DNA of 64,000 nucleotides, taken from the NCBI GenBank assembly GCA_030427255.1, contig JAUHWY010000017.1, forward strand, positions 1 through 64,000. Reading direction: 5' to 3'. The notes under the pieces were generated by a model, which was not told the origin of the DNA, made no database searches, and saw only the letters and a program-made list of their open reading frames with translations. Below are positions 1-17,888 of the stretch, piece after piece. The DNA is from Bacteroidia bacterium (GTDB lineage: Bacteria; Bacteroidota; Bacteroidia; CAIKAF01). Position 1 is the stretch's first letter. The number at the start of each line of letters is the position of its first letter. The position numbers were made by a program, and so were the translations under genes.

Positions 1-137
1 AACCGGGGTGCCGGATTCCCATTCTTGGAGAATCTTTACAATTTGAGTTGGGGAAAACTTGCTCTTTTTCATAGACAGTCAAATTTAATTCTAGTTTTGG
101 ACTGTCCGGTTTTGGGGGAAGCTTACATAATTACTAG

Positions 138-706: not shown

Positions 707-836
707 ACCTAACAGCGCACATAGCTTATGGCGGCAGAAAGGCTACCAGCAAGGCATTCGCTTTGTGGCAAGCTTTGGTTTCAATGGACAGGAATGTGGT
801 TTGAAACCGCCACAAGCCATATGCAAACCGTTAGAA
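707..836 (+). repeat. attC-like palindromic element B
   Basis: This is the clearest of the three elements. It starts with ACCTAAC, a perfect RYYYAAC core, and ends with GTTAGAA, one mismatch from GTTRRRY. The two ends form an imperfect palindrome: CTAAC, GCACATAG and CTTATGGCGGC on the left match the reverse complement of the right arm, which reads CTAAC, GCATATGG and CTTGTGGCGGT. The block GGACAGGAA...GAAACCGCCACAA.CCATATGC is shared with element C. The right core is fused to the tail of a recombinase gene (see 830-980). Confidence 0.65.
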
Positions 837-980
837 ACCGGCTGCTTCAACAGCTTCGTCCCCCGTTCGATGATTTGTGAAAACAAGGTATATTAGCAAA
901 GAGTAAACGAATGAGGAAAACCATCACTTTGACTACCATTGAGGGTGGATAAATGAGGTTCAGCCTCATTTATAAATGAG
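830..980 (+). repeat. displaced 3' tail of a tyrosine recombinase plus leader, copy 1
   Basis: These 151 bases match 17613-17763 on the opposite strand with 12 substitutions and no gaps. The first part, GTTAG to the TGA at 878-880, still reads as the end of a recombinase (RNRLLQQLRPPFDDL, then stop). It begins exactly at the GTTAG of attC-like element B. A leader of about 100 bases follows. It carries TATATTAG, one base from the Bacteroidota -7 box, and a short ORF starting at 911 (MRKTITLTTIEGG, stop). It also has a perfect hairpin, AAATGAGG/CCTCATTT, at 951-971, just before the gene at 996. A promoter role for the leader is inference. Confidence 0.75.
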
Positions 981-1786: not shown

Positions 1787-4588
1787 ATGACTTCAACGAT
1801 GAATCAAAATCCGGAGCAAAAAGCGCGTGACAACATCGACAAAATGTTGGTTGAAGCGGGTTGGGTTGTCCAGTCCCTAAGGCAGGTGGATTTGTCTGCT
1901 GCTAAAGGTGTGGCTGTACGTGAATATCAAACGGACCTTGGACCTGCCGACTATGTTTTGTTCGTGGATAGAAAACCTGTGGGGGTAATTGAAGCAAAGC
2001 GAGAAGAACAAGGAGAAAAACTCACCATTCATGAGGACCAATCAAAAGACTATGCAGAAAGCAAACTCAAATACCTGAATAACGACCCGTTACCATTTGT
2101 TTACGAAAGTACGGGAGTTTTAACGCGATTCACAGACTACCGAGACCCAAAGCCTAGATCAAGACCCATATTTCATTTCCATAAGCCTGAAACTCTGTTG
2201 CAATGGAGTGTACAGGAAAAAACGCTGCGAGCTAGACTGAAGGAAATGCCGGAACTGGAGGAAGAAGGCTTAAGACCGGCGCAGATTAAAGCCATACGAA
2301 ATCTCGAATCATCTTTTAAAGACAATAGACCAAAAGCCCTAATTCAAATGGCCACAGGTGCAGGTAAAACATTCACCGCTTGCACTTTTGTCTATCGCTT
2401 GCTAAAGCATGCAGATGCCAAACGCATTCTGTTTGTGGTAGACACCAAAAATTTGGGCGAACAAGCTGAACAAGAGTTTTTGAAATACCAACCGACTGAC
2501 GATAACCGAAAGTTCACAGAACTCTACAACGTACAGCGTTTGAATTCGAGTTATATCGCTTCGGACAGTCAGGTGTGTATTTCGACCATTCAACGCCTCT
2601 ACTCCATTTTGAAAGGGGAAGAACTCGAAGAAGCTGCCGAAGAAGAAAACCCAAACGAAAAAAGCTGGCAATGGCAAAAGAAAGAACCCATGCCCGTAGA
2701 GTACAATGCCAAAAATCCAATCGAGCAATTTGATTTCATCATCATTGACGAGTGCCACCGCTCCATTTACAATTTATGGAAGCAAGTACTCGACTATTAT
2801 GATGCTTTTCTTATTGGCTTAACCGCTACACCCGACAAGCGCACCTTTGGTTTCTTCAACGAAAATGTGGTGAGTGAATATACCTACGAAGAATCGGTGG
2901 CCGATGGGGTGAATGTGCCTTATGACGTCTTTACCATTGAGACGGAAATCACCCAAGCGGGTGCCAAAATCAAGGCGAAGGAATATGTGGACAAACGCGA
3001 AAAATTGACCCGAAAGAAACGCTGGGAACGATTGGACGAAGATTATGAATACACCTCCAATAAGCTGGATAAAGATGTTGTCAATCCCAGTCAGATCCGT
3101 CACATTATAAAAGCGTACCGAGACGCTTTGCCAAGCATTTTCCCCGATCGTTTGGATGAACAGGGAGCCTTTGAAGTGCCTAAAACATTGGTGTTTGCCA
3201 AAACCGATAGCCATGCGGACGATATCATCCAAATCATCCGGGAAGAATTTGGGGAAGGAAATGACTTCTGCAAAAAGGTGACCTATAAAATTGAGGAAGA
3301 CCCCAAATCGGTGTTGAACCGCTTCCGGAATTCATGGAATCCGCGCATTGCTGTTACGGTAGATATGATTGCAACGGGAACAGATGTAAAGCCTTTGGAA
3401 GTGCTGCTTTTTATGCGAGACGTTAAGAGCATCAATTATTTTGAACAGATGAAAGGTCGGGGAACCCGAACCATCAATTTTGATGATTTGAAACGCGTTA
3501 CCCGAACAGCCAAACATACCAAAACCCACTTTGTAATTATTGATGCTGTAGGTGCCACCAAATCCAAAAAAACAGATAGCCGTCCCTTAGAACGAAAACC
3601 CACTACGCCTTTAAAAGACCTGCTTGGCGCAGTAAAAATGGGTGTTCAAGACGAAGACCTGTTCACTTCCTTGGCGAACCGATTGATTCGTTTGGAAAAA
3701 CAACTGACAGTAGACGAAAAGGCAAAATTTGAAGAACTTACAAAAGGCAAAACACTGAACCAAGCCACCAAAGACCTACTCAATGCCTTCGACCCGGATT
3801 TGATTGAAAGTAAGACACAAGCATTGGTCCATCAGATTCCGGTGCAAGACCGAACGCCGGCCAAAGAAGAGGCATGCCGCAAGCAAGCCCAAAACGAATT
3901 GGCCGTCCATGCGGCTAAGACCTTTACCGGAGCACTGAACGAATACATTGAAAATGTCCGTAAGGTACATGAGCAGATCATTGACACGGTAAACACCGAC
4001 AAAATTCTGCGTGCCGAGTGGGACAGTTTTACCAAGGACAAGGCGGCAGAAGTGGTCAAGAGCTTCACCGAATTTATGGAAGCCCACAAGGATGAGATTA
4101 CCGCATTGAGCATTTTTTATGACCAACCCTACCGAAGACGCGAGCTCACCTTTAAGATGATCAAAGACCTGATGGACAAACTAAGGCTGGAAAAGCCATT
4201 GCTTGCTCCGCATTATGTGTGGGAAGCCTATGCCCAACTCGAAGAAGTAAAAGGCAATAGCCCCAAAAACGATTTGGTGGCCTTGGTTTCCTTAATCCGA
4301 AGGGTTACAGGCATTGACCAACAACTCACGCCTTTCAACAAAACGGTAGACAAAAATTTTCAGGAATGGGTTTTTGGCAAGCAAGCCGGAGCACTTAAAT
4401 TTACCGATGCACAAATGCAGTGGTTAAGAATGCTCAAAGACCATATTGCCAGCAGTTTTCATGTAGACATAGACGATTTGGATTATACCCCTTTTGATGC
4501 ACAAGGGGGCAGAGGAAAGATGTATGAACTGTTTGGGGATAAAATGAATGCCATTATTGTGGAGTTAAATGAGGCCTTGGCGGCATAG
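1787..4588 (+). CDS. hsdR: type I restriction enzyme R subunit (HsdR)
   Basis: The 933-residue product is the ATP-dependent translocase and nuclease of a type I restriction complex. The N-terminal PD-(D/E)xK nuclease is visible as D55 (PADY) and E69-A-K71 (VIEAK). The SF2 motor follows with Walker A ATGAGKT (189-195), DECH (321-324) and LIGLTATP. A second RecA domain carries QMKGRGTR. Length and order fit the HsdR family, and all key residues are present. A second in-frame ATG lies four codons in (1799), and either could be used. It is the first gene of a co-directional operon whose other genes encode the S and M subunits. Confidence 0.95.
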   Translation: MTSTMNQNPEQKARDNIDKMLVEAGWVVQSLRQVDLSAAKGVAVREYQTDLGPADYVLFVDRKPVGVIEAKREEQGEKLTIHEDQSKDYAESKLKYLNNDPLPFVYESTGVLTRFTDYRDPKPRSRPIFHFHKPETLLQWSVQEKTLRARLKEMPELEEEGLRPAQIKAIRNLESSFKDNRPKALIQMATGAGKTFTACTFVYRLLKHADAKRILFVVDTKNLGEQAEQEFLKYQPTDDNRKFTELYNVQRLNSSYIASDSQVCISTIQRLYSILKGEELEEAAEEENPNEKSWQWQKKEPMPVEYNAKNPIEQFDFIIIDECHRSIYNLWKQVLDYYDAFLIGLTATPDKRTFGFFNENVVSEYTYEESVADGVNVPYDVFTIETEITQAGAKIKAKEYVDKREKLTRKKRWERLDEDYEYTSNKLDKDVVNPSQIRHIIKAYRDALPSIFPDRLDEQGAFEVPKTLVFAKTDSHADDIIQIIREEFGEGNDFCKKVTYKIEEDPKSVLNRFRNSWNPRIAVTVDMIATGTDVKPLEVLLFMRDVKSINYFEQMKGRGTRTINFDDLKRVTRTAKHTKTHFVIIDAVGATKSKKTDSRPLERKPTTPLKDLLGAVKMGVQDEDLFTSLANRLIRLEKQLTVDEKAKFEELTKGKTLNQATKDLLNAFDPDLIESKTQALVHQIPVQDRTPAKEEACRKQAQNELAVHAAKTFTGALNEYIENVRKVHEQIIDTVNTDKILRAEWDSFTKDKAAEVVKSFTEFMEAHKDEITALSIFYDQPYRRRELTFKMIKDLMDKLRLEKPLLAPHYVWEAYAQLEEVKGNSPKNDLVALVSLIRRVTGIDQQLTPFNKTVDKNFQEWVFGKQAGALKFTDAQMQWLRMLKDHIASSFHVDIDDLDYTPFDAQGGRGKMYELFGDKMNAIIVELNEALAA

Positions 4589-4615
4589 TCTTGACCTGGA
4601 TTTAAGGATAGTATA

Positions 4616-5032
4616 ATGAACCTGATGAATGCGGACAAGATGAAATGGGATGACATAAACGAATTAACAAGAAAGATTATTGGATGTGCTATGGAGGTAC
4701 ACAATCAGTTGGGCAATGGTTTTCAGGAAGTTATCTATCAACGTTCATTGGCCATAGAGTTTGGCATACAGGGGCTTTCCTTTGCGCGGGAACTGGAAAT
4801 GGCTTTGCACTACAAAGGTGAGCGTGTTGGCACCCGAAGAGTCGATTTTTTTGTAGAAGACCTTGTAATGGTTGAAATTAAAGCCCTTGAAAAACTAGAA
4901 GGTGTACACAAAGCACAAGCCATCAATTACTGCGAAGCATATAATATTGCCGATGGGCTGCTGATTAACTTTGGCGCTCAATCCTTGCAATTTCATCGGG
5001 TTTATAACAAAAAATTAAAAAAGAAATCATGA
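4616..5032 (+). CDS. GxxExxY family protein inside the RM operon
   Basis: The 138-residue product matches the GxxExxY family, a PD-(D/E)xK-like fold found next to many Bacteroidota genes. The eponymous motif is GNGFQEVIY (about residues 38-46). RRVDFFVED...MVEIKAL follows, giving the D...E-x-K arrangement of the nuclease fold. KAQAINYCEA and LLINFG near the end are also family-typical. It lies 27 bases after hsdR, and its TGA overlaps the ATG of a 41-codon ORF (ATGA), so it is translationally linked to hsdS. An accessory nuclease or DNA-binding role in the RM system is inference. Confidence 0.85.
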   Translation: MNLMNADKMKWDDINELTRKIIGCAMEVHNQLGNGFQEVIYQRSLAIEFGIQGLSFARELEMALHYKGERVGTRRVDFFVEDLVMVEIKALEKLEGVHKAQAINYCEAYNIADGLLINFGAQSLQFHRVYNKKLKKKS

Positions 5033-5154
5033 CCCCATCAAACCATGCCCCCTCAAATCCTGCCCCGTCAAATCTTGACCATCCTGAAATCAAACAAATC
5101 CTGTTCAGACAAATGAACGAAACAATTAAACTAAACGAAGTACTGGCTGCCTAA
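5029..5154 (+). CDS. 41-residue ORF coupled to hsdS
   Basis: This short reading frame has 41 codons. Its ATG overlaps the TGA of the GxxExxY gene (ATGA at 5029-5032), and the last base of its TAA is the first base of the hsdS ATG (TAATG at 5152-5156). The N-terminal half is low complexity with a repeated PSNxAPSN pattern, and the C-terminal half (PEIKQILFRQ, MNETIKLNEVLAA) looks like one amphipathic helix. Both junctions are typical of translational coupling, so it is at least translated. It may be a small accessory peptide or only a coupling device that loads ribosomes onto hsdS. I know no family for it. Confidence 0.55.
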   Translation: MTPSNHAPSNPAPSNLDHPEIKQILFRQMNETIKLNEVLAA

Positions 5155-6512
5155 TGAGAGAAGATTGGATTGAAATAGAATTAGATGAAGTAGCTGAAGT
5201 TAATCCTAAAAAACCACAAGCTGATGACGAATTAGAAGTGACATTTTTACCAATGCCATTGGTTGAAGAGGAAACAGGCCGTTATCATCTTAAAGAAACT
5301 CGGAAGTTTTCTCAAGTTAAGAAGGGGTATACAGGTTTCATTGAAGGAGATGTTTTATTTGCCAAGATTACTCCTTGCATGGAGAATGGTAAAATAGCCG
5401 TAATAAACAATTTGATAAACTCAGTTGGCTTTGGTTCAACGGAATTCCATGTTCTAAGGCCATCATTTGCACTAGAAAAGAAATACCTTTTCTATTTTTT
5501 GGTCCGAAAAGCTTTCCGCGGGTACGCTCAAAGAAAGATGACAGGCAGTGCTGGTCAGTTGCGTGTTCCCAAAAGCGTACTGCAGGCAGCTAATATCCCA
5601 ATCGCCCCCCTCCCCGAACAACGCGCCATAGTCGCCAAAATAGAGCAGCTTTTCAGCGAGTTGGACAATGGCATAGCCAACCTCAATGCCGCCAAAGATA
5701 AACTGGAAATCTACCGCCAGGCCGTGCTGAAAAAAGCGTTTGAGGGGGCATTTACTGTTGAATGGCGCTTCAATCAGGATTTCGATACAACTTGGGAAGC
5801 CACTGTATTAGGCGAAATTGCGAAATGGGGTTCTGGAGGGACGCCATCAAGAAAAATAGATGAATATTTCACAGGTGATATCCCATGGCTAAAGACAGGC
5901 GAACTTGGGCCTATGTACGTAGATGATGCTGAAGAAAAAATCACTGAAGAAGCGATTCTGAAATCCAACGCTAAAGTTTTCCCGAAAGGTTCGGTTGGCA
6001 TTGCAATGTATGGTGCAACGATTGGCAAAACCTCTATTTTCAATGCTCCTTTGGCAACTAATCAAGCTTGTGCTGTTGCCCAACCAAATGAAGATATTAA
6101 TGCTGTATTCCTTTATTATTATTTACTCTCCCAGAAGTATGATTTAATTAGGAAAGGTCAGGGAGGAGCCCAACCGAATATCTCCCAAGGTGTTTTGAAA
6201 GAGCATCCCATCTGTGTTCCAAGAATTGAAGAACAAGAGCAAATTATTTGCGAAATCGAATCCCGCCTTTCGGTTTGCGACAATATTTTGGCCAACATCG
6301 AAGAAGGACTAGAAAAAAGTGAAGCCTTGCGGCAAAGCATCCTCAAACAGGCCTTTGAAGGAAAGTTGTTGAGTGAGGAAGAACTGGAAGCTTGCAGAAA
6401 GGAACCGGATTGGGAGCCGGCGGAAAAGTTGTTGGCCCGTATTGAGCGAAGCCGAAATGAACGGATTAAGAACGAAGAGAAGGTAAAACCCCAAAAAGTA
6501 AGCCATGCCTGA
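5154..6512 (+). CDS. hsdS: type I restriction specificity subunit (HsdS)
   Basis: The 452-residue product is the DNA-recognition subunit. It has the usual two target-recognition domains, each followed by a conserved coiled coil. The first spacer starts with PLPEQRAIVAKIEQLF at about residue 156 and runs through an Ala/Lys-rich helix to AFEG. The second starts with RIEEQEQIICEIESRL and ends at KQAFEGKLL. TRD2 has the typical WGSGGTPSR...IPWLKTGEL pattern. The two TRDs differ, so a bipartite asymmetric target is expected; the sequence recognised cannot be read from here. The 3' end overlaps the DUF4062 gene by 8 bases. Confidence 0.93.
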   Translation: MREDWIEIELDEVAEVNPKKPQADDELEVTFLPMPLVEEETGRYHLKETRKFSQVKKGYTGFIEGDVLFAKITPCMENGKIAVINNLINSVGFGSTEFHVLRPSFALEKKYLFYFLVRKAFRGYAQRKMTGSAGQLRVPKSVLQAANIPIAPLPEQRAIVAKIEQLFSELDNGIANLNAAKDKLEIYRQAVLKKAFEGAFTVEWRFNQDFDTTWEATVLGEIAKWGSGGTPSRKIDEYFTGDIPWLKTGELGPMYVDDAEEKITEEAILKSNAKVFPKGSVGIAMYGATIGKTSIFNAPLATNQACAVAQPNEDINAVFLYYYLLSQKYDLIRKGQGGAQPNISQGVLKEHPICVPRIEEQEQIICEIESRLSVCDNILANIEEGLEKSEALRQSILKQAFEGKLLSEEELEACRKEPDWEPAEKLLARIERSRNERIKNEEKVKPQKVSHA

Positions 6513-7044
6513 TGCACCGCTAAAAATAATGGTGTCCTCTACGGTCTATGGTTCAGAAAGTGATTTGGACCAGATAAAGTATATCCTTGAAGGGTTCAAT
6601 TATGAGGTTGTCATGTCTAAGGAAGGGAATATTTATGTAGGAATTGATGATGACCCTGAAGATGCTTGCCTAAAAGCAGTTGAAGATTGTGATTTATTCT
6701 TTGGGATAATTTTCCCAAGATATGGTTCGGGCATCACCCATAAGGAGTTCAAAAAGGCCGTTGAGCTTAATAAGCCACGGTTTTTTATAGCGCATCAATA
6801 CATCGAGTACACAAGCAAACTAATGGCGCAGTTTATGTACGATGAAAATACGATTAGGAATGATTTTGATATCCAACCAACAAGCGTACTAGATAGTATT
6901 AAAGTGGTGGATATGTACAATGATGTAAGAGCTAAATGGGTGCAGCCTTTTTTCAAGACAAGTGAAATTCAGGTCTTTCTTGAAACTCAATTTAGAGACC
7001 ATGAAAGACGAAGACAAGAAATAGAAGCAAGAAAAAATGAATAG
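6505..7044 (+). CDS. DUF4062 (TIR-like fold) protein embedded in the RM operon
   Basis: The 179-residue product has the DUF4062 signature: an opening beta strand MVSSTVYG with a following DLDQI helix, then ACLKAVEDCDLFFGIIFPRYGSG, then a conserved Glu in THKEFKKA and KPRFFIAH. DUF4062 is generally placed with the TIR/SEFIR-like folds, several of which hydrolyse NAD in antiviral signalling; activity here is inference. The C-terminal tail is a charged helix. The gene overlaps hsdS by 8 bases and the next gene by 8 bases, so the trio hsdS-DUF4062-AlbA is tightly coupled. Such partners may sense failure or inhibition of the restriction complex. Confidence 0.85.
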   Translation: MPDAPLKIMVSSTVYGSESDLDQIKYILEGFNYEVVMSKEGNIYVGIDDDPEDACLKAVEDCDLFFGIIFPRYGSGITHKEFKKAVELNKPRFFIAHQYIEYTSKLMAQFMYDENTIRNDFDIQPTSVLDSIKVVDMYNDVRAKWVQPFFKTSEIQVFLETQFRDHERRRQEIEARKNE

Positions 7045-8557
7045 CGAACAACTCATAAAAAGCCTCCTAAAACAAGGTGAGGGCGAGCAGCTTGAGTTTA
7101 CACATGTTGTTCGCAAAGATGCCATTGGCAAAAGCATTTGTGCCTTTCTAAACCATGAAGGTGGTCAGGTACTCATTGGTATTTCTGACGATAAAAAAGT
7201 AGTCGGCATTGCTGATGCTGAAAAGTGGGAAAAGGAGTTAACCGATTACCTAAATACATCCATCATTCCAGAAGCCCCGGTGATGGTTTCCGTTGAGCGT
7301 GTAGGCACAAAACAAGTCCTATTGGTTAAAGTATGGGCCGGCTCCAAGCAGCCCTACATTTATGATGGCAGCATATACTTCCGTAAGGGCCAAAGCACGG
7401 AAAAAGCAAGTTCGCAGCAGATTTCAGACTTAATACATAATCGCCAGAAAGCAGAGTTGCACTGGGAACGTAAATTGGCACTGGGCGTTGAATTAGAAGA
7501 TTTGGATATAAACGAAATTCAAAAAACCATTGAACGGTCCATCGACGAAAGCAAGCTGGACGAGAGCAAAAGAAATCCGATGGACTTCCTGACCCATTTC
7601 GGACTTTTCCAGAATGGTCATTTCACCCATGCTGCTGTAGTGCTCTTTGCAAAAAATCCTGCTCGTTTTATACCCCAAACGCGTGTTCGGGTGGCATTTC
7701 TCGAAAAAGGAAAAACGGCGGATGAGTTTGTAGATGATAAAATTCTCGATGGCAATTTGTTCAAGAACATCTTAGCGGTTCAAGACTTCTTCGAGAAACA
7801 TTTACGCACCACCAGAAAATTCAGTGAAAAGGAATGGGAGCGGCAGGATGAATATGTGGTGCCTATGTCGGCATTGCGAGAAGGTGTGATGAACGCCTTG
7901 GTGCATCGGGATTACAGCTTGCCATCAGCTTCCATGTCGGTGATTATTTACAGCGATAGAATTGAAGTCTTAAACTCCGGCAAGTCACCATTGAAAGCAG
8001 CGGAGCTAAAAAAGAGCCACTTATCGCTTCCGGTAAATCCTGACATAGCCCACATGGTATTTCTGAGAGGCTACATAGAGAAGATTGGTAGAGGTACCAT
8101 AAAAATCATGGATGCTTGTAAAGCTGCCGGTCTTAAAGCACCTAAATGGACAACTACAGATACTAGCGTAAAACTTGCTTTTCCTCTTAATGTAAAACTT
8201 GGCGGAGCTAGTGACCGAGCTTCTGATCTAGCAAATGACCGAGCTGTTGACCGAACGATTGACCGAGCTATTGACCGAGCTATTGACCGAGCTATTGACC
8301 GAGCTATTGACCGAGCTACGATGGATACAAAAAAGAAACTTGCCATATTGTTAAGGGCAATCGTCCAAGATGAAGGAGGAAGAAATCCAGATTATCAAAA
8401 AGCGACAAATCTTGGAAGTGAAAGTACAATAAAGAGGTATCTCGATCAACTAAGAGAGATAGACTTCATTGAATTTAAAGGAACAGCGCCTCAAACGGGC
8501 GGCTACTTCATTACTGACAAACTGAAAAAAATAATTAGTCAAAAACCTACAGATTAA
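7037..8557 (+). CDS. AlbA_2/HATPase ATP-binding protein with DRAI repeats
   Basis: The 506-residue product begins with an AlbA_2 (Schlafen-like) domain: GEGEQLEFTH at residues 14-23, then FLNHEGGQVLIGISDD and VYFRKG-type strands. A GHKL ATPase-like region follows (REGVMNALVHRDYS at about 280, then SDRIEVLNSGK, and RGTIKIMDACKAAG). This is the architecture annotated as transcriptional regulator or ATP-binding protein. A linker of about 25 residues made of repeated D-R-A-I joins a C-terminal winged-helix-like domain (SESTIKRYLDQLREIDFIEFKG). It overlaps the DUF4062 gene and precedes hsdM by 33 bases. It may regulate the operon or act with DUF4062 as a guard module; neither is proven. Confidence 0.85.
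   Translation: MNSEQLIKSLLKQGEGEQLEFTHVVRKDAIGKSICAFLNHEGGQVLIGISDDKKVVGIADAEKWEKELTDYLNTSIIPEAPVMVSVERVGTKQVLLVKVWAGSKQPYIYDGSIYFRKGQSTEKASSQQISDLIHNRQKAELHWERKLALGVELEDLDINEIQKTIERSIDESKLDESKRNPMDFLTHFGLFQNGHFTHAAVVLFAKNPARFIPQTRVRVAFLEKGKTADEFVDDKILDGNLFKNILAVQDFFEKHLRTTRKFSEKEWERQDEYVVPMSALREGVMNALVHRDYSLPSASMSVIIYSDRIEVLNSGKSPLKAAELKKSHLSLPVNPDIAHMVFLRGYIEKIGRGTIKIMDACKAAGLKAPKWTTTDTSVKLAFPLNVKLGGASDRASDLANDRAVDRTIDRAIDRAIDRAIDRAIDRATMDTKKKLAILLRAIVQDEGGRNPDYQKATNLGSESTIKRYLDQLREIDFIEFKGTAPQTGGYFITDKLKKIISQKPTD
8213..8317 (+). repeat. 12-bp in-frame tandem repeat (DRAI linker)
   Basis: Inside the AlbA_2/HATPase gene the unit GACCGAGCTATT is repeated perfectly at 8261, 8273, 8285 and 8297. 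A fifth variant unit sits at 8309, and diverged units (DRAS, DLAN, DRAV, DRTI) lie upstream. The unit is a multiple of three, so slippage would change linker length by four residues without breaking the frame. Confidence 0.9.
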
Positions 8558-8590
8558 CTTGCGTCCTAACCTGCGGAAAAAAGAGAAAAT

Positions 8591-10081
8591 ATGAGTAACG
8601 AATCAAGCATAGTATCAAAAGTTTGGAGTTTTGCCAGCGTACTTCGAGACGATGGCGTAAGCTATGGGGACTATTTAACGCAACTTACCTATCTGCTTTT
8701 CCTTAAGATGGTAGATGAGTTTGCCAAACCACCTTACAATAGGCAAATCGCAGTTCCGGAAGGATGCGACTGGGAAAGTCTGAAGGGAAAAAGAGGTGCA
8801 GAACTAGAAACCCATTACACCAAAATACTTCGAGAGCTCGCAAAAGCCAAGGGTACACTTGGGCAAATCTTTGTCAAGTCAAGAAATGAAATTCAAGACC
8901 CTGCCAAGCTCTACAAGATCATAGATATGGTCGACAAGGAAAAATGGAGCATGATGGGCGCCGACCTGAAAGGCAAAATCTATGAAGGCCTTTTGGAAAA
9001 GAACGCAGAAGACACCAAATCAGGAGCAGGACAGTATTTTACGCCAAGAGCGCTGATTCGAGCAATGGTCGCCTGTGTGCAGCCGGAACCTATGAAGACG
9101 ATTAATGATCCTGCTTGCGGGACAGGAGGTTTTTTCCTGGCAGCCTATGACTATATCGTTGAAAATCATGAGTTGAACCGAGAACAAAAAGCCTTCCTTA
9201 AAAACAGCACCTTTTTTGGCAATGAAATCGTTGCAAATACACGCAGGATGTGTTTGATGAACCTGTTTTTGCACAATATTGGTGAAATTGACGGTGAAAA
9301 CTTTATCTCTTCTGCAGACGCCTTGGTTGCTGATGAAGGAAAGCGTTTCGACTATGTGCTGGCTAATCCGCCATTTGGTAAAAAGTCAAGCATGACTTTC
9401 ACCAACGAAGAGGGTGAACAAGAAAAAGAAGATCTTATTTACAACCGTCAGGACTTTTGGGCGACCACCTCCAACAAGCAGCTCAATTTCATGCAACATA
9501 TACGGACGCTGCTTAAAGAAAATGGAGAGGCAGCAGTTGTTTTACCTGATAACGTATTGTTTGAAGGTGGAGCCGGAGAGACCGTTCGCAAACAAATGCT
9601 CCAGTCTACCGAATTGCACACCATTCTTCGCCTGCCAACAGGAATATTCTACAAACCAGGGGTGAAAGCGAATGTCTTGTTTTTCGACAACAGACCGGGA
9701 GCGAAAGAACCATGGACAAAGGAGGTTTGGATTTACGATTATAGAACTAATGTCCACCATACCTTGAAGAAGAAAACCATGCAATTAGAAGACTTACAAG
9801 ACTTCATTGACTGCTACAATCCAAGCAATCGAAATGACCGAACCGAAACTTGGTCGGAAGAAAACCCCGAAGGACGCTGGCGCAAATTCACCTATGATGA
9901 AATCATTGCGCGTGATAAAACCAACCTTGACATCTTCTGGCTCAAAGACAAAAGCTTGGCAGACCTTGACAATCTTCCGGACCCGGATATTTTGGCCAAT
10001 GAAATCATAGAAAACATTGAGGCCGGACTGGAAAGTTTTAAAGAAGTGATGGAAACGATTAATGGAAAAGTTGAGGAATGA
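8591..10081 (+). CDS. hsdM: type I DNA methyltransferase subunit (HsdM)
   Basis: The 496-residue product is the adenine methyltransferase of the type I complex. An N-terminal HsdM helical domain (about residues 5-130) precedes the SAM-binding core with GQYFTPRALI and motif I DPACGTGG (173-180). The catalytic motif IV NPPF is at 259-262. The C-terminal part (VLPDNVLFEGGAGE, LPTGIFY, KANVLFF) is typical of the family. It is the last gene of the operon, an unusual distance from hsdS because two accessory genes intervene. The start ATG follows a purine-rich stretch (AAAAAAGAGAAAAT). Confidence 0.95.
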   Translation: MSNESSIVSKVWSFASVLRDDGVSYGDYLTQLTYLLFLKMVDEFAKPPYNRQIAVPEGCDWESLKGKRGAELETHYTKILRELAKAKGTLGQIFVKSRNEIQDPAKLYKIIDMVDKEKWSMMGADLKGKIYEGLLEKNAEDTKSGAGQYFTPRALIRAMVACVQPEPMKTINDPACGTGGFFLAAYDYIVENHELNREQKAFLKNSTFFGNEIVANTRRMCLMNLFLHNIGEIDGENFISSADALVADEGKRFDYVLANPPFGKKSSMTFTNEEGEQEKEDLIYNRQDFWATTSNKQLNFMQHIRTLLKENGEAAVVLPDNVLFEGGAGETVRKQMLQSTELHTILRLPTGIFYKPGVKANVLFFDNRPGAKEPWTKEVWIYDYRTNVHHTLKKKTMQLEDLQDFIDCYNPSNRNDRTETWSEENPEGRWRKFTYDEIIARDKTNLDIFWLKDKSLADLDNLPDPDILANEIIENIEAGLESFKEVMETINGKVEE

Positions 10082-10167
10082 AAAAGGAAGTCAAGCATCG
10101 TTTAAACAACAAGTCAGCAGATTCATTGGTCTTATGCATGGAGTTGTGGAGGCAGGAGTGGGTAATG

Positions 10168-10296
10168 ATGAATGATAAATGATGAATGATAAATGATGAA
10201 TGATAAATGATGCGGTAAAGACGGGATGCCTCCCGTCTCTCGGTAAAGACGGGATGCCTCCCGTCTCTCGGTAAAAACGGGATGCCTCCCGTCACT
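10168..10296 (+). repeat. 14-bp tandem repeat followed by three 28-bp palindromic units
   Basis: GATGAATGATAAAT is repeated three times from 10168. Three 28-bp units then start at 10213, 10241 and 10269. Each holds the perfect palindrome GACGGGA-TGCC-TCCCGTC (the third has one change), preceded by CGGTAAA. The same unit recurs at 50870-50957. The pattern resembles bacterial REP or short palindromic dispersed repeats. An open frame on the minus strand (10059-10295) exists only because of these repeats. Confidence 0.85.
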
Positions 10297-10349
10297 CAGG
10301 ATTCCCCCTCCCCCCCGGGCGCTAAACCCCCTTGTTTAAGACGCCCCCC

Positions 10350-10431
10350 GCGTGAGGGATAGCAGCGGAAAGCCCACAGCGAGGAACGAGCGAGGACTTG
10401 CAGCGGATAGCCCGACCCGAAGGGGCACGCC
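10350..10431. repeat. GC-rich imperfect hairpin between hsdM and the B12 operon
   Basis: The outer arms are GCGTG at about 10350 and CACGC near 10427. Inner complementary pieces (AGCGGAAAGCCC, GCGGATAGCCCGACCC) flank a CGAGGAACGAGCGAGGAC core. It is one of several long GC-rich hairpins found only between genes in this window. It may contribute to termination after hsdM, but no T-run follows. Confidence 0.5.
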
Positions 10432-10455
10432 CAAAAATCAAATTTTCTTAGCGTG

Positions 10456-10485
10456 TTGCATCTCCATTAATTTGGTTTAACTTTG
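10456..10485 (+). promoter_or_regulatory. predicted promoter of the B12 operon
   Basis: TTG at 10456-10458 and TAACTTTG at 10478-10485 are separated by exactly 19 bases. This matches the Bacteroidota housekeeping consensus (TTG, 19 bases, TAnnTTTG). Transcription would begin near 10492, about 25 bases before the cobalamin riboswitch. Confidence 0.7.
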
Positions 10486-10514
10486 CGGCTAGTTCTTTAA
10501 ACATACATCAAGTA

Positions 10515-10682
10515 TCAACCGATGTTGGTTGCACCGAAAGGTGCATGAAAAGGGAATCGTGTGAAAATCACGAACTGTCGCGCAACTGTAAGTAACCTCA
10601 AGTTTGCGGCCCTCGATATCCACTGCTCCGGCGGGAAGGATGGCCCCAAACGTTACAAGTCAGGAGACCTGCCTTCATCGTA
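10515..10682 (+). ncRNA. cobalamin (B12) riboswitch
   Basis: Characteristic blocks appear in order: GGTTGCACCGAAAGGTGCATGAA, the GGGAATCGTGTGAAAATCACGA stretch, CGCGCAACTGTAA, CCACTG..., GGGAAGGATGGCCCC and the B12 box GTCAGGAGACCTGCC at about 10659-10673. CGATG (10520-10524) pairs with CATCG (10676-10680) as P1. Adenosylcobalamin binding is expected to shut the downstream genes off, as known for the family. It sits about 110 bases before btuB and explains the operon's regulation. Confidence 0.93.
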
Positions 10683-10792
10683 TAGACAATGCTTTCGCGG
10701 TTTGAAGCTTTCGGTCTGGTTGGCGTTTGGGCATTTGCCCCTGCCTAGCTGTATTCATTCCACTGCATTGCCATGCTTGCTGCCTTTTTGGA

Positions 10793-12715
10793 ATGAATAT
10801 GCACCGTTTCCCTCACATGCTCGCTCTTTGGTTTTGCCTTGCGCTTACGGGGATTTCCTTTGCCCAATCCATTCCTTCCGATTCAGCCATCGCGCTTCCC
10901 GAAACTCAAATCCTTGCCGATCGCATCAAACATAGCCATGCCGGACTAAATACCAGTACTTACGACTCCCTGCTTCAAGCCTATCCCCAAGGGAATTTGG
11001 CCGATTTCCTGACCCGGGAAAGCCCCATGTTTATCAAATCCTATGGCTTGGGTTCCTTGGCTACCACAGCTTTTCGGGGAGGTAGCGCCTACCATACCGC
11101 CGTGCTTTGGAACGGCATTGCGCTGTCTAGTCCCATGAACGGGCTGTTGGACCTCTCCCTGGTTCCCTTGGCCGCCGCCAAGCATTTGGAACTGCAACAT
11201 GGAGGCTCTACCGCCTTGTTTGGCAGCGGTGCGGTGGCCGGAGTCCTCAAGTTTTCCAGTCAACCTTCGTTAGGACAAGGTTTTAGCTTGGAGGCGGACC
11301 TGTCCGTGGGTAGTTTTTCCGACTTTCGGCAAGAGCTGGGCGCAACTTGGAGTAAAAAGAGATTTGCTTCTTCGCTGCGCATATTTCACGCTTCGGCGCA
11401 AAACGATTTTAGCTTCACCAACCCCTATCTGGGCAACGAACGGAGCCGTCAAACCCATGCCGAGCTGCGGAACCTAGGGCTGGTTACCGACCATATTTGG
11501 TCGCCCGGAAAGGGACATAGCCTGAGCTTAAACGCTTGGCTGCAGCGTACCGAGCGTAACCTGCCGCCGACTTTGCTGCAAAGCATAAGCCGGGCAAAGC
11601 AAGAAGATCGGGCGCTGCGTCTGCATGCCGCCTGGAAATACCAAAAGGGCCCTTGGGAGACCCATCTGCGCACGGCTTATGTGCATGAAAGGCTTTTGTA
11701 TCAAGATTCCTTGTCCGACATCTATAGTTTGAGCCTAAGCCATCAATGGATTAACGAGGCAGAGGCCAAGGTGCGGCTTCACCCCAACCACAGCCTGCAA
11801 ATGGGCTGGCATGGAAGTTTTGCGTTGGCTTCTCATCCTAGTTTTGCCTCAAGCCCCGAACAGTTCCGTACCGCCTTGTTTGCGTCCTACAGCTACCGTA
11901 GCAAAAACCGCAAATGGCATGCCCAGGCCTCAGGCCGCGGCGAAATTTGGGCCGGAAAGGTGGCGCCTCCCACTTTTTCGGTGGGCTTGGATTACCGGCT
12001 CTTCCCTTGGTTGAAATTAAGGGCCAATGGCTCCAAGCTTTACCGCATCCCAACCTTTAACGATTTGTATTGGATTCCTGGAGGAAATCTCGAACTAAAG
12101 CCCGAAGAAGGCTATGCGCTGGAAGGCGGGCTGGACCTCCATGTTAAATACAGGAAGTTCACATTTAGGTCTTCCCTTACCGCATTCCATCGAGACATCG
12201 ACCATTGGATTCTTTGGCTTCCGGGCACTTCTTTTTGGAGTCCCCAAAATTTGAGGCAGGTGTGGAGTCGAGGCTTGGAAACCCAAACCGACCTAAGTTA
12301 CCGGAACGGCAAGTGGAGCATAGGACTGAATTTGTCGACCCAATACGTGGTGTCGACCAACCAAAAAGCGCTAGGCCCGAACGATTTATCGTTGGGGAAA
12401 CAACTGATGTATACCCCGGTGTACAGCGGCGGAGCCGGACTTTCCTTGGCTTATGGCGGCTTGAGCCTCAGCTACCGGCACCAATACACCGGTTACCGAT
12501 ACACCTCCACCGACAATACGCAGTTTCTTAGCCCTTTTGACTTGGGAAGTGTGCAGCTGGCTTACCTTTTTCCATTCAAAAGTCATAGGCTTAGGGCACA
12601 CCTGAGCATAAACAATGTTTGGAACAGCGACTATTTGGTCCTTGCCAACCGGCCCATGCCCGGCATACAGTGGATGGGCGGCATTTCCATACGATTACAA
12701 AAACCGAACAATTAA
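10793..12715 (+). CDS. btuB: TonB-dependent cobalamin receptor (BtuB-like)
   Basis: This outer-membrane TonB-dependent receptor has about 640 residues. The signal peptide (HMLALWFCLALTGISFAQ) is followed by a plug domain with YGLGSLATTAFRGG, NGIALSSPMNG and GSTALFGSGAVAG, which are typical plug motifs. Many alternating beta strands end in the last strand GGISIRLQ. The open frame extends to 10727, but ATG 10793 (or 10799) directly precedes the signal peptide. Assignment to B12 rests on the riboswitch just upstream and the BtuG-like gene downstream. Short intergenic distances indicate one transcript with the next three genes. Confidence 0.9.
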   Translation: MNMHRFPHMLALWFCLALTGISFAQSIPSDSAIALPETQILADRIKHSHAGLNTSTYDSLLQAYPQGNLADFLTRESPMFIKSYGLGSLATTAFRGGSAYHTAVLWNGIALSSPMNGLLDLSLVPLAAAKHLELQHGGSTALFGSGAVAGVLKFSSQPSLGQGFSLEADLSVGSFSDFRQELGATWSKKRFASSLRIFHASAQNDFSFTNPYLGNERSRQTHAELRNLGLVTDHIWSPGKGHSLSLNAWLQRTERNLPPTLLQSISRAKQEDRALRLHAAWKYQKGPWETHLRTAYVHERLLYQDSLSDIYSLSLSHQWINEAEAKVRLHPNHSLQMGWHGSFALASHPSFASSPEQFRTALFASYSYRSKNRKWHAQASGRGEIWAGKVAPPTFSVGLDYRLFPWLKLRANGSKLYRIPTFNDLYWIPGGNLELKPEEGYALEGGLDLHVKYRKFTFRSSLTAFHRDIDHWILWLPGTSFWSPQNLRQVWSRGLETQTDLSYRNGKWSIGLNLSTQYVVSTNQKALGPNDLSLGKQLMYTPVYSGGAGLSLAYGGLSLSYRHQYTGYRYTSTDNTQFLSPFDLGSVQLAYLFPFKSHRLRAHLSINNVWNSDYLVLANRPMPGIQWMGGISIRLQKPNN

Positions 12716-12726
12716 TACCTATACTT

Positions 12727-13875
12727 ATGAGAAAACAAGCCATGCGCAGCCTTATGGTGCTATGCTTAGGAGCAGGAAGCGCAAATGCACAAGCCCAACT
12801 TTCCTTTTCCGATGTAAGCTACTGGGTAGGCAGCGGCAGCGACTCCTCCGTTTTGGTGGTGGACTTTAAAGACGCCAGCTGGGACAGCTCCTATGCCTGG
12901 GGCTTTTTACACAACGGCAACGCAACGGCCGAGCAAATGCTCAACGCCATTGCCGCGGCAGATCCCAACTTTAGCATCAATGCAAGCGGCGGGTTTTTAA
13001 ACGACATAAGTTACGGGAACCATAGCGGCATTGGCGGAACCAACAACTTTTATTGGTCTACCTGGTCGGGTACCAATGCCTCCAACTGGAATTCAAATTT
13101 AGGTATTGGAGAAAGCCTTAGCAACGGTGCTTGGTTTGGCTGTGCCTTTACCGACTTCAATCCGGCCTTAGCCCCCGGAAACCCCATACCGGCCTTTGAT
13201 CCGGCGCGTTTCACGGCCCAAAACGTCGACTTTTGGGTGGGCAGCGGCAGCGACAGCTGCGTTTTGGTCATTGACTTTTTGGATGGAACGGGAAGCGCCT
13301 CCTTTGCTTGGGGCTATGCCTATTCCGGCATTCAAACGGGCGAGCAAATGCTCAACGCCATTGCCGCAGCCGATCCCATGCTCAGCGTGGGCATAGCAGG
13401 AGGTTTTTTAAACGACATCAGCTACGGCAGTTATTCGGGCATTGGCGGAAGCCCCAACTATTGGAGCACCTGGAGTGCAAGCAATTTGGGCAATTGGAGC
13501 TTCAATATGGGCGTAGGCGACACCCTGCAAAACGGCAGTTTTTTCGGTTGTTCCTATACCGATTTTAGTCCTGCCTTGCGCCCCGGTTATCCTACTGCAG
13601 CAAGCCCTGTGGCCGGCATGGAAGCCAAAGCCTCCATCTCCGTGGAAGTGTATCCCAACCCTTCCTCGGATTTCTTGTACCTAGCATCCAACGATGCTGC
13701 TTTAGAAACTTGGGAGGAAGCCTTTATTCTTGACCTTTCCGGTCGTAGGCTATGGCACCAAAGCATGTTGGAGGTCTCTACGCCCATTTTCATTCAGCAG
13801 CTCCCGGCAGGTAGCTATTTTTTAATGCTGAAGCAGGGCAATACGCTGCATAGCGCTCAATTCTTGAAGCAATGA
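12727..13875 (+). CDS. two-repeat T9SS surface protein of the B12 operon
   Basis: The secreted protein has about 382 residues. A signal peptide (LMVLCLGAGSANAQA) precedes two copies of a domain of about 140 residues. Each copy opens with (Y/F)WVGSGSDS.VLV(V/I)DF, continues with S(Y/F)AWG and EQMLNAIAAADP, then GGFLNDISYG..SGIGG and (Y)WSTW, and closes with GCxxTDFxPAL.PG(N/Y)P. The last 80 residues are a type A T9SS sorting domain (VEVYPNPSSD ... LPAGSYFLMLK). A longer frame starts at 12619, but ATG 12727 begins the signal peptide. Co-expression with btuB suggests surface capture or handling of corrinoids; this is inference, as I know no biochemical role for the repeat. The stop overlaps the next ATG. 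Confidence 0.85.
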   Translation: MRKQAMRSLMVLCLGAGSANAQAQLSFSDVSYWVGSGSDSSVLVVDFKDASWDSSYAWGFLHNGNATAEQMLNAIAAADPNFSINASGGFLNDISYGNHSGIGGTNNFYWSTWSGTNASNWNSNLGIGESLSNGAWFGCAFTDFNPALAPGNPIPAFDPARFTAQNVDFWVGSGSDSCVLVIDFLDGTGSASFAWGYAYSGIQTGEQMLNAIAAADPMLSVGIAGGFLNDISYGSYSGIGGSPNYWSTWSASNLGNWSFNMGVGDTLQNGSFFGCSYTDFSPALRPGYPTAASPVAGMEAKASISVEVYPNPSSDFLYLASNDAALETWEEAFILDLSGRRLWHQSMLEVSTPIFIQQLPAGSYFLMLKQGNTLHSAQFLKQ

Positions 13876-14864
13876 AAGGCCTAAGCACTTTTGCCCTATT
13901 GTTTTTCCTGAGCCTTTCGGCGGCGGCGCAATTTCCGCCTGCCGCCGGGCAGCCCGGGTCCACGGCCATTCACAAAGACAGCAGCCTCATTGCTGCTTGG
14001 GCGGTTTCGTGTTCGGTACAGCGCGGATATCAAGACATTTCAGACACGGCCTTGGGTTTGGCTAACGTGGGCGACAGCAGCATGGCCGTGGGGCCCGCAG
14101 GTGCAGCCGGGGTGGTGAGCTTAGGCGATGGAGGCCAAGCCATATTGAGCTTTGCGGAGCCTATACAAAATGGTCCCGGCTGGGATTTTGCCGTTTTCGA
14201 AAACAGCTTCAGCGACGATTATTTGGAGTTGGCTTTTGTGGAAGTCAGCTCGGATGGGCTGAACTTCTTCCGCTTTCCGGCCACTTCCTTAACCCAAGAC
14301 AGTCTGCAAGTCGGAAGCTTTGGAAGCCTGGACCCCACCCAAATCAACAACCTGGCCGGAAAATACCGCGCCCTGTTTGGCACGCCCTTCGATTTGGACG
14401 AGCTAAGTGGAACCCCCGGACTGGATTTGGAGGCCATAAGCCACGTCAAAATTATGGATGTGGTGGGCTCCCTTCAAGACAGCTTTGCTACTTACGACCA
14501 TTTGGGCAACAAAATCAACGACCCTTGGAGCACTCCTTTCCCTTCCGGAGGCTTTGATTTGGATGCCGTGGCGGTGCTTAACCATCCCTCGGCTGCTACG
14601 CATAGCCCGGTTCAAAACAGCGGCATAAAGCTTTTTCCCAATCCGGCCGGGCAGCAAGTCCACCTTCGGTGGAACCACCCCGAAGCGCTGCAATTCCTAG
14701 GGCTTTACAATGCCCTTGGGCAATTGGTGTACCAAGTGCCGGAACCGGGGACGGCTTCGGAATTCAGCATTTCGGTAGCGGCTTTCCCTTCCGGAAACTA
14801 TATTTGGCTTGCACAAAGCAAAAGCCATCGAATGACCCAAAAACTGAGGATTCAGCATGATTAA
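13872..14864 (+). CDS. T9SS surface protein of the B12 operon
   Basis: The 330-residue protein has a signal peptide (LFFLSLSAAAQ). Its core domain has the pattern VSLGDGGQAILSF..PI.NGPGWDFAVFENSF.DD(Y/F)LELAFVEVSSDG..FFRFPA, and later LDLEAISHVKI(M)DVVGS and GGFDLDAVAVLN. The C-terminus is a type A T9SS domain (KLFPNPAGQQVHL ... FPSGNYIWL). The core resembles beta-sandwich surface domains that I have seen beside B12 receptors in Bacteroidota, but I have no name for it. It overlaps both neighbours (ATGA at 13872 and 8 bases at 14857), so it belongs to the same operon. Confidence 0.83.
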   Translation: MKGLSTFALLFFLSLSAAAQFPPAAGQPGSTAIHKDSSLIAAWAVSCSVQRGYQDISDTALGLANVGDSSMAVGPAGAAGVVSLGDGGQAILSFAEPIQNGPGWDFAVFENSFSDDYLELAFVEVSSDGLNFFRFPATSLTQDSLQVGSFGSLDPTQINNLAGKYRALFGTPFDLDELSGTPGLDLEAISHVKIMDVVGSLQDSFATYDHLGNKINDPWSTPFPSGGFDLDAVAVLNHPSAATHSPVQNSGIKLFPNPAGQQVHLRWNHPEALQFLGLYNALGQLVYQVPEPGTASEFSISVAAFPSGNYIWLAQSKSHRMTQKLRIQHD

Positions 14865-15894
14865 ACCCAGCCGGCTATGGATTTTGGGCCTTTGTTTGGC
14901 CCTTAGTGCTTGCATAAAGGACGGTCCCGACAGCAACAATCCGCCCATTTCTACCGACGGCCAAAAGGGAGTATTCATTGCCAACGAAGGCAACTTCCAG
15001 TTTGGAAATGCATCGGTCAGTTATTTTCAGGAAGGTTGGGACGAGGCCGTCGAAGACCTGTTTGCATCGGCCAACAACCGGCCTTTGGGCGATGTATGTC
15101 AATCCCTTTGTTTCTTCAACGGCATGGTATATGCCGTACTCAACAATTCCGGCAAAATAGAGATTGTACAAAAGGATAATTTTAATGAACTACACACCAT
15201 TTCGGGCTTGCCATCGCCCCGCTACATGCTGCCCGTAAGCAACGCCAAAGCCTATGTAAGCGATTTGTATGCCGATGCCATTGCCGTGGTGAACCTCAGC
15301 AGCCACACCGTTGAGGGCAGCATTCCTTGTCCCGGTTGGACCGAAGCTATGGCCCTGGCCTATGGCAAAGCCTTCGTAACCAACAGGTCGAGTGCGTATG
15401 TATATGTGATTGAAACCGCCGGCGACCAAATCGTAGACAGCATTGAGGTAGGCTTTGGGGCCAATTCCCTGGTTCAGGACAAAAACGGCAAACTTTGGGT
15501 CTTGAGCAGCGGCAGCAGCGGGCAAGGGCAAGCGGCCCGGCTCCACCGCATCGACCCGGCGCAACTAGAAGTAGAGCAAAGCCTAAGTTTTAGCGACCCC
15601 GGCGCAGGACCCGGCCGGCTAAGCCTCAACGGCGGCGGCGACACCCTGTATTATTTGGACGGAGACCTGTATCGATGCAGCATCGATGCAGGCCAACTGC
15701 CCACGCAGCCCTTCATTGCCGCGGAGGGCCGCAATTTATATGGCTTAGGAATCCATCCCCAAAGCAGCGAAATATACCTTGCCGACGCAAAAGACTACGT
15801 ACAGCGCGGCGAAGTGTACATCTACCGTCCCGACGGCAGTTTGCGCCGCAGTTTTTTAGCGGGAATCATTCCGGGCCACATTTATTTTGATTAG
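14857..15894 (+). CDS. BtuG-like beta-propeller lipoprotein
   Basis: The 345-residue lipoprotein has a lipobox at LALSAC (Cys about residue 20). A seven-bladed propeller of the YncE/DUF5074 type follows: GVFIANEGNFQFGNASVSYF, NNSGKIEIVQKD, SGLPSPRYML, AYVSDLYADAIAVVNL, WTEAMALAYGKAFVTN and KLWVLSSG. In Bacteroides, BtuG is a propeller lipoprotein that sits on BtuB and binds B12 very tightly. This gene has the same size, fold signature and operon position, so it is the likely counterpart. Direct evidence of binding is absent. Confidence 0.85.
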   Translation: MIKPSRLWILGLCLALSACIKDGPDSNNPPISTDGQKGVFIANEGNFQFGNASVSYFQEGWDEAVEDLFASANNRPLGDVCQSLCFFNGMVYAVLNNSGKIEIVQKDNFNELHTISGLPSPRYMLPVSNAKAYVSDLYADAIAVVNLSSHTVEGSIPCPGWTEAMALAYGKAFVTNRSSAYVYVIETAGDQIVDSIEVGFGANSLVQDKNGKLWVLSSGSSGQGQAARLHRIDPAQLEVEQSLSFSDPGAGPGRLSLNGGGDTLYYLDGDLYRCSIDAGQLPTQPFIAAEGRNLYGLGIHPQSSEIYLADAKDYVQRGEVYIYRPDGSLRRSFLAGIIPGHIYFD

Positions 15895-16034
15895 GGCTTT
15901 GCGTGTATTATGCCGGGAAATGGGGGGCTTTGAATTTTTGATCTTAAGGAGGGGATTGTTGTCCGAGAGGTCTGTTGGGCCTTTCTTCCATAGGAAAAGC
16001 AAGCTCCGTATCCGCCCCTTGGCTGCGGTCAGCC

Positions 16035-16114
16035 CCTGGCGTCCCCAAGGCGCTCTAAGGCTGCGGGTTCCGCCCAAAGTTGGAATCCTCGCCCAAGAGC
16101 GCCTAGGGGCCACC
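16035..16114. repeat. GC-rich long hairpin downstream of the B12 operon
   Basis: CCTGGCGTCCCCAAGGCGCTCT at 16035-16056 pairs with AGAGCGCCTAGGGGCCACC at 16096-16114. The gap 15895-16207 between the convergent B12 operon and the ankyrin gene holds nothing else I can name. The hairpin could act as a bidirectional terminator-like barrier, though it lacks a T-run. Confidence 0.55.
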
Positions 16115-16207
16115 TAGTGGCGGGCCCTCCGTTTGGGGCGGGAGGCCATTCTTTGGAGGTTCAATGCATTTAGTTGCTTAAAGCGGAGGTTTTGCTCCTC
16201 ATAACTT

Positions 16208-16897
16208 CTATTTGTTAAGCGCTTGCCGAAGAATACTTCTTATTCTTTTCGTTGGTGCAAGCTCTTCCAATGCTCTATTGTCATGTTTGGGCAGTGGCCC
16301 TACCTTAACTCCATGTTTAATTAAGCATGCCAGTATTTCCGGTTGGGACTCCATAACAGCAAGATGCGTTAAGCTATAACCTGCCCTGTCTTTAATATGT
16401 ATATCTAGCCCTAGGTCTATAAACAGGTTTAGCAAAGCCAATTGTCCATAGGTTACGGCATCAATCAACACGCTGTGGAAAAGGTAGTTTTCTTTTTCTT
16501 GTTCATTTTTCAAATGAAATTGCACCAAGGTTTTTGCGCAATCGAGAGCTCCATGACAGGTAGCCAGGTTCAGAGGGCTTTTTTGAGCGGCATTGTAACG
16601 GATGGGCAAGGCCTTGTTTGCCAATAACAGATGTAAAGTTTCAAGGTCGTTTGATTGGGCTGCAAAATGCAAGGCAACATCGCCATGATTGTCGGCTAAG
16701 TTCGGGTCTGCATTATACTTGGTCAACAAACACTTCACAATTGGAGGGACAAATCTAGACGAGGCATAATGGAGCAAAGTCCAACCACCCTCGGTGTCTT
16801 GAAAATTTATCCACTCCCCTTTAAATTCGGTTTGGAAATAGGCTATATCTCCCTGATCAATGGCATCTCTTGCTTGTGTGAATATGGTGTTTTTCAT
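16208..16897 (-). CDS. ankyrin-repeat protein
   Basis: The product is a protein of about 229 residues made of ankyrin repeats: GGWTLLHYASS, DNHGDVALHFAAQSNDLETLHLLLAN, SPLNLATCHGALDCAKTLVQFHL, VLIDAVTYGQLALLNLFIDLGLDI and AGYSLTHLAVMESQPEILACLIKHG. It has no signal peptide, so it should be cytosolic and mediate protein binding; the partner is unknown. The open frame continues to 17074, but the added N-terminus is low quality, and ATG 16897 begins a good helical start (MKNTIFTQARDAIDQGD). Confidence 0.8.
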   Translation of the reverse strand: MKNTIFTQARDAIDQGDIAYFQTEFKGEWINFQDTEGGWTLLHYASSRFVPPIVKCLLTKYNADPNLADNHGDVALHFAAQSNDLETLHLLLANKALPIRYNAAQKSPLNLATCHGALDCAKTLVQFHLKNEQEKENYLFHSVLIDAVTYGQLALLNLFIDLGLDIHIKDRAGYSLTHLAVMESQPEILACLIKHGVKVGPLPKHDNRALEELAPTKRIRSILRQALNK

Positions 16898-16962
16898 TCG
16901 AATACTAACGGTATGTGGTCCAGTCTTTTTTCTTGGGCTTTGGGTTCGATAGGTTTTTTGTC

Positions 16963-17157
16963 CTAAAGCTTCCGGAATAAGCAGCAAAGCGCCGGAATAT
17001 AAGCACAAAGTTCCATGTTTGGGGTTTTCAGACCCGCCTGCGGTGATTGGGCTACATGGGACAACAAGAGCCATTTATTTTGGTTTTGAACTTGTCTTAA
17101 GAAGTCGACCACATTAGTAGTGTCGTTAATAAAATAACAGCTAATTTTTGTTGGCAT
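16963..17157 (-). CDS. possible 64-residue ORF of unknown origin
   Basis: This frame starts at the base next to the TAA of the lipoprotein gene and encodes 64 residues (begins MPTKISCYFINDTTNVVDF). I recognise no family. Part of it (DNA encoding QVQNQNKWLLLS) has a degenerate look-alike at about 18310-18360 on the same strand, where the frame is broken. It may therefore be the end of a duplicated, decaying gene rather than a working one. Confidence 0.25.
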   Translation of the reverse strand: MPTKISCYFINDTTNVVDFLRQVQNQNKWLLLSHVAQSPQAGLKTPNMELCAYIPALCCLFRKL

Positions 17158-17600: not shown

Positions 17601-17612
17601 AATTAATGCCCA

Positions 17613-17763
17613 CTCGTTTATAAATGAGGCTGAACCTCATTTGTCCACCCTCAATGGTAGGCAATGTGATGGTTTTCTTCATTCGTTTACTCTTTGCTAA
17701 TATAAGTTGTTTTCACAAATCATCGAATGGAGAACGAACCTGTTGAAGCAGCCGGTTGCTAAC
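17613..17763 (-). repeat. recombinase tail plus leader, copy 2
   Basis: This is the minus-strand copy of the 830-980 segment (12 substitutions in 151 bases, no gaps). It contains the recombinase stop codon, TATATTAG, a short ORF beginning MKKTITLPTIEGG and the AAATGAGG/CCTCATTT hairpin, and it ends 12 bases before the lipoprotein ATG. Here the short ORF reads on past the point where copy 1 has a stop, to 33 codons (ending NYEKYEE), overlapping the lipoprotein start. The match with copy 1 stops at GTTAG (17759-17763). Confidence 0.8.
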
Positions 17764-17820: not shown

Positions 17821-17888
17821 CCAATAAGGGGGAGGGGGGGGGTAAAAAAGTATATCCTATACCTTTTTCAGGTATATCGGGGGGCAAA

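Follow-up and report, generated by a model that had tools for sequence, protein, structure and literature searches.

A 150-bp recombinase tail that is probably a displaced attI, from an apparently widespread and overlooked kind of integron in Bacteroidia

RESULTS

A recombinase tail within a cassette array

The window (the whole stretch of 64,000 nucleotides that was analysed) and its contig share their first base, which falls within a leftward-reading IS3-type OrfA. This is followed by a short array in the order attC A, cassette, attC B, recombinase tail, cassette and attC C. A second copy of the tail is found further on, on the reverse strand. The features, with the basis of each assignment in parentheses, are:

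1-72, reverse strand: start of an OrfA (MKKSKFSPTQIVKILQEWESGTPV) that runs off the contig start, which we take to be of the IS3 family (read from the sequence)
137-270, forward: attC A, with a degenerate 3' core, GCTAAGC, in place of GTT (sequence and motif positions)
281-706, forward: cassette ORF, 141 aa (no Pfam match)
708-836, forward: attC B, CTAAC...CCG/TTAG, crossover 830/831 (G then TT) (fold and motif positions)
830-880, forward: last codons of a recombinase, VRNRLLQQLRPPFDDL and stop (sequence; C-terminus ..SPFDDL as in intact relatives)
831-980, forward: probably displaced 150-bp unit (recombinase 3' tip plus attI), with G/TT at either end (five copies in the genome; the attC-linked copies differ in both flanks)
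949-973, forward: inverted repeat in the attI region, AAATGAGGTTCAGCCTCATTT (relatives have equivalent inverted repeats of other sequence)
972-990, forward: attI core, TATAAATGAG / TTGTACAGC, crossover 980/981 (divergence in all copies; profile and control; edge of a shared cassette in relatives)
996-1589, forward: cassette ORF, 197 aa (no Pfam or PADLOC match)
1574-1700, forward: attC C, crossover 1694/1695 (weaker fold, z = -1.3)
17157-17600, reverse: ORF, 147 aa, of the cassette behind the second attI (listed ORF)
17613-17763, reverse: second tail copy, in register with a recombinase fragment; attI crossover 17613/17612 (151-bp match)
17716-17811, reverse: recombinase C-terminal fragment ..LLGHKSSKTTENYTHVSNRLLQQVRSPFDDL and stop, a pseudogene (sequence comparison)

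The bottom strand of attC B folds into a long stem (-25 kcal/mol, z = -3.3). Directly behind attC C, positions 1787-10081 are occupied by Type I restriction-modification genes (HsdR, a PD-(D/E)XK nuclease, HsdS and HsdM), with a weak pAgo-like ORF among them at 7037-8557; no attC was seen at the end of this gene block. Immediately upstream of the truncated recombinase fragment, at 17840-18250, are AT-rich repeated units (GGATAGCATATACC.. / ..ATATCCGGAATTTAGGTAATG).

The initial annotation of this DNA had matched 830-980 to 17613-17763, and this 151-bp match is real (92% identity, 12 substitutions, 0 gaps, E = 5.8e-58; the second block is on the reverse strand). As it had also described, the block starts at the G of GTTAG (position 830), exactly at the G/TT that closes attC B; the other end is the G of GAG/TT at 980, so that both ends of the block are recombination points. 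Its reading of the tail as the closing part of a gene for an integron-type integrase is supported, and the ..SPFDDL C-terminus is shared with intact relatives. For the copy at 17763 it was right that ..LLGHKSSKTTENYTHV runs unbroken into the tail, but the host is a truncated fragment and not an intact gene.

Five tail copies are found in the window genome (C39:830, which is the one at 830 in the window, C35:71433, C39:17763, and one each in C5 and C44). Two of them, C39:830 and C35:71433, have an attC 3' end directly in front of them, the joint falling exactly at G/TTAG, and the junction is thus present at a second locus; the copies at C39:17763, C5 and C44 continue from decayed recombinase fragments. 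A sister species contributes seven further tails, of which six read through and the seventh lies at a contig edge. Of the 12 tails in the two species, nine run on from a decayed recombinase C-terminus, two are joined to an attC, and the remaining one is the tail at the contig edge. All 12 part ways after the G/TT at the end of the leader, which is a second point of divergence. Searching plasmids by blastn with the tail gave no match, and Rfam gave nothing relevant for the tail and the repeat loci.

The attI site after the stop codon

More than 570 relatives were found when 84,980 species genomes were scanned, and the 80 best were retrieved. Intact tyrosine recombinases of other Bacteroidia match the fragments of the window genome and end in ..YTHVSTKSLQKIKSPFDDL before the stop codon (..SPFDDL). 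In these relatives the stop codon is followed by about 100 bp containing an inverted repeat, whose arms vary by species yet stay complementary, and then by TATA..AG/TTR. The latter pattern is present after the stop in 63 out of 71 relatives (the loci with 190 bp of sequence past the stop codon), as compared with 1.2-2.4% of random control windows, and past the first ten bases after G/TT almost no sequence is shared. By this comparison, 980/981 in the window can be identified with the attI site conserved in relatives across the class.

An integron-like system with its integrase co-directional with the cassettes had been proposed from the window, and this is what the relatives have: the attC sites follow the gene on its 3' side and share its strand. 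The attI lies beside the integrase gene with entry at G/TTR, as in canonical integrons, but the classical layout, in which intI is transcribed away from the cassettes, is not found. The proposal that cassettes enter on the 3' side of the integrase stands; its choice of GTTAG as the normal attI does not, the main point of entry being 980/981, about 100 bp past the stop.

If GTTAG inside the gene were the regular attI, cassettes would integrate at this point and cut the last codons from the rest of the gene, and the two exact attC/TTAG junctions are what this would produce. However, all 12 tails diverge again at the end of the leader, where the intact relatives bear their cassettes, nine of the 12 tails are unsplit, and GTT is missing at the equivalent codon in most relatives. 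The splitting model, put forward in the initial annotation, fails in particular at C35, where the upstream end of the array is another recombinase fragment with an attI of its own and not the missing half of the gene; both junctions, moreover, are of one origin (see below). We consider the model largely refuted, and a regular attI at GTTAG very unlikely.

attC arrays and exchange of cassettes

A generic AAC..GTT pattern proved too permissive for detecting attC. The stricter pattern used instead, AACA..ACGTTR, passes over CCGTT sites, the form found in the window genus, and the counts given here are therefore lower bounds: around the integrases, at least 102 attC-like sites are downstream on the integrase strand, one is on the other strand and nine are upstream, the amount of upstream DNA scanned being 2.4 times that of downstream DNA. 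The 102 sites have a length of 131 +/- 1 bp. Their arms pair in one register, with up to 90% of positions paired against 38% expected from column composition, and have the paired R''/L''-L'/R' arrangement of canonical attC sites. Folding is weak for attC C and for the second attC of C35.

One cassette of about 1,440 bp is shared, at 93-94% identity, by three distant genomes, those of Flavobacterium denitrificans, Pelobium manganitolerans and a Bacteroidia MAG (copies at L099:10925-12365, L095:18669-20107 and L124:17862-19300, in Flavobacteriaceae, Sphingobacteriaceae and a MAG). On the left it is bounded by the attI crossover in F. denitrificans and by an attC crossover in P. manganitolerans and the MAG, its right edge is the crossover of its own attC in all three, the flanks are unrelated, and the edges fall exactly at G/TT. 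Read from these alignments, the shared cassette with its exact edges is natural evidence of cassette exchange at attI and attC points; the arrays run one way and exchange cassettes, as those of canonical integrons do. It encodes an ArsR-type regulator, a MerTP-like protein and a 68-aa protein (named by motif reading), and is probably a mercury-resistance cassette.

On plasmid NZ_CP041688.1 of Chryseobacterium sp. SNU WT5 (L170), positions 9770-20810 hold a recombinase of this family, attI and co-directional attC cassettes, and the array contains a group II intron reverse transcriptase. NCBI names one plasmid-borne family member 'site-specific tyrosine recombinase/integron integrase'. Many MAG contigs stop a few hundred bases past the integrase stop codon (G027:C132, G029:C16, G030:C24, G116:C19, G174:C21 and others), which is expected if the arrays differ among strains.

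Recombinases that lack the IntI-specific domain

The recombinases of these loci are tyrosine recombinases without the IntI-specific domain of about 41 residues, and we call them patchless. When intact relatives are aligned with VchIntIA (2a3v), residues 180-243 of the chain are skipped against 180-201 of the query, at the IntI-specific domain, so the additional domain of canonical integrases is missing from them. The KDR motif and the HxLRH box are 59 residues apart in patchless proteins, 100 in IntI and 66 in Xer. In a tree of 51 rows the patchless, IntI and Xer proteins each form one group with support of 98/94 to 100/99, the bootstrap being short of fully settled and some branches being long. 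The patchless proteins resemble XerA, XerC and XerD in belonging to the same enzyme family and lacking the IntI domain, and the NCBIfam XerA model scores them near its cut-off; unlike Xer proteins, they fall outside the clade of XerC/D-like rows (XerA itself being outside the tree) and are linked to attI and attC arrays. They also have the SPxD-type tail, which is found in 79 of 80 patchless proteins and in all 14 IntI, and is absent from the Xer set.

At E <= 1e-70 the patchless family, divergent members included, is found in 148 of the 295 genomes sampled from Bacteroidia, and in 91 of 155 genera. Canonical IntI scores over cut-off in one of 395 Bacteroidia and in 84 of 296 genomes of the phylum sample. 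The sole canonical IntI of the class sample (G173:C40:3592-4530, L163) was possibly gained from outside.

IntI is able to act in trans and is common in the wider phylum sample, and the arrays might accordingly be served by a canonical IntI encoded elsewhere, the patchless recombinase being an unrelated XerA-like neighbour. Against this, a profile search of 20 array-bearing genomes found canonical IntI over cut-off in none (TIGR02249 gave split matches, at about 2-178 and 238-315), the class as a whole has the single case just given, and one genus after another has attI and arrays joined to the patchless gene, always in the same orientation and at the same spacing. We regard service in trans as highly improbable, and infer instead that the patchless recombinase would itself catalyse attI/attC recombination.

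Origin of the tail behind attC B

At the head of the C35 array stands another recombinase fragment with a complete attI of its own; two cassettes come next, then the tail, placed behind an attC, and finally two more cassettes. It has no cassette in common with the window, either upstream or downstream of the tail. The two attC-linked tails are nevertheless mutual closest relatives (eight differences, support 0.87) and have private substitutions in common. Given this sister relation, and cassettes that differ on either side of the two tails, the tail and attI were probably cut out at GTTAG once and then moved, and GTTAG in the gene looks like a secondary recombination site. By comparison of the sequences, the position of attI, the attC arrays, their co-direction with the gene, the exchange of cassettes, the missing domain, the exact junction and the common origin of the tails can be taken as demonstrated; that this recombinase made the cut at GTTAG is what we infer.

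Since the event at GTTAG was seemingly single, it could also be some other accident involving a 5-bp microhomology. Homologous or illegitimate recombination of an array with a remnant, the integrase taking no part, would fit a junction of single origin and a break at which only five bases, GTTAG, are shared; it fits less well with a break that falls exactly on the attC crossover and an attC B that is otherwise intact and well folded. This origin of the junction is rather unlikely, and less readily dismissed than a regular attI at GTTAG.

We think it likely that the 150-bp piece is a displaced attI of an integron type found across Bacteroidia. Intact members have a patchless tyrosine recombinase transcribed toward an attI about 100 bp past its own stop, and cassettes ending in attC would insert at the G/TTR of this attI and align co-directionally. 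In the window genome the integrase has decayed, leaving several remnants of recombinase tail and attI, each with its own cassettes. In one remnant G/TTAGC within the last codons (HVS) may have served as a secondary recombination site, by which a unit of the last 15 codons, attI and the following cassette was joined behind an attC and later moved. The unit now stands mid-array in two different arrays, with new cassettes behind the attI it carried.

DISCUSSION

The nearest precedent is the displaced delta-attI of class 1 and 2 integrons, in which a piece of attI (up to 244 nt) is likewise displaced into the array and bounded by a crossover point (PMC12901181). The piece described here differs in comprising the whole attI region and the tip of the integrase gene, with new cassettes behind it; in delta-attI cassettes a partial attI replaces the attC of the cassette, whereas here attC B is intact and the tail stands behind it.

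Canonical integrons (IntI1, VchIntIA) share with these loci the attI adjoining the integrase gene, the one-way cassettes bounded by attC and the SPxD C-terminus, but not the co-directional integrase, the absence of about 41 residues of the IntI-specific domain or the separate clade. Co-directional integrases are known from chromosomal integrons of Treponema (PMC3607928), and the reverse orientation of intI has been noted in Spirochaetota (PMC9668308); the Treponema enzymes are counted as true IntI, of the domain-bearing class, whereas here the domain is absent and the hosts are Bacteroidia. The domain is used as a criterion for integrases in surveys (PMC2426708, PMC9668308), and according to the title of Messier & Roy 2001, as cited in PMC4792948, it is necessary for IntI activity, which speaks against the reading proposed here. 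Surveys that apply this criterion detect hardly any integrons in Bacteroidia. For Bacteroidetes, IntegronFinder 2.0 reported integrases without arrays and one complete integron, in Salinibacter (PMC9024848). Within the open-access literature (subscription papers and preprints being outside our scope) we found no description of domain-less integrons in Bacteroidia.

This kind of integron is apparently widespread and overlooked. With somewhat more reserve than for the displaced attI, we favour the wider reading that Bacteroidia have an integron lineage of their own, run by domain-less recombinases; it would occur in about half of the species and have escaped surveys through their demand for the domain. 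It may predate the gain of the domain by IntI, and its attI could be mobilised in arrays through a site inside the integrase gene. If about half of the class does have attC arrays run by domain-less recombinases, many mobile cassettes have gone unnoticed, a large reservoir that includes metal resistance, and the role of the IntI domain and the origin of integrons would become directly testable. The displaced tail suggests that attI itself is movable.

The array of the window is probably a relic. No intact member of the patchless family was found in the window genome (G000) or in G004, and one was found in G005, of the same genus; given this absence, the local arrays have probably either become relics or depended on an integrase that is now lost.

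We also considered whether the tail could belong to an unrelated dispersed repeat, and excluded this. The independent repeat at these loci is a 234-bp palindromic element (TTTGGGCGCC...CCCACGGTTTTAACCGTGGGC; L005:1780-2013, reverse strand), with 28 copies in the window genome and 35 in G004. It is found upstream of most recombinase fragments, which several diverged copies meet at one and the same internal position, and most of its occurrences are at places with no recombinase fragment.
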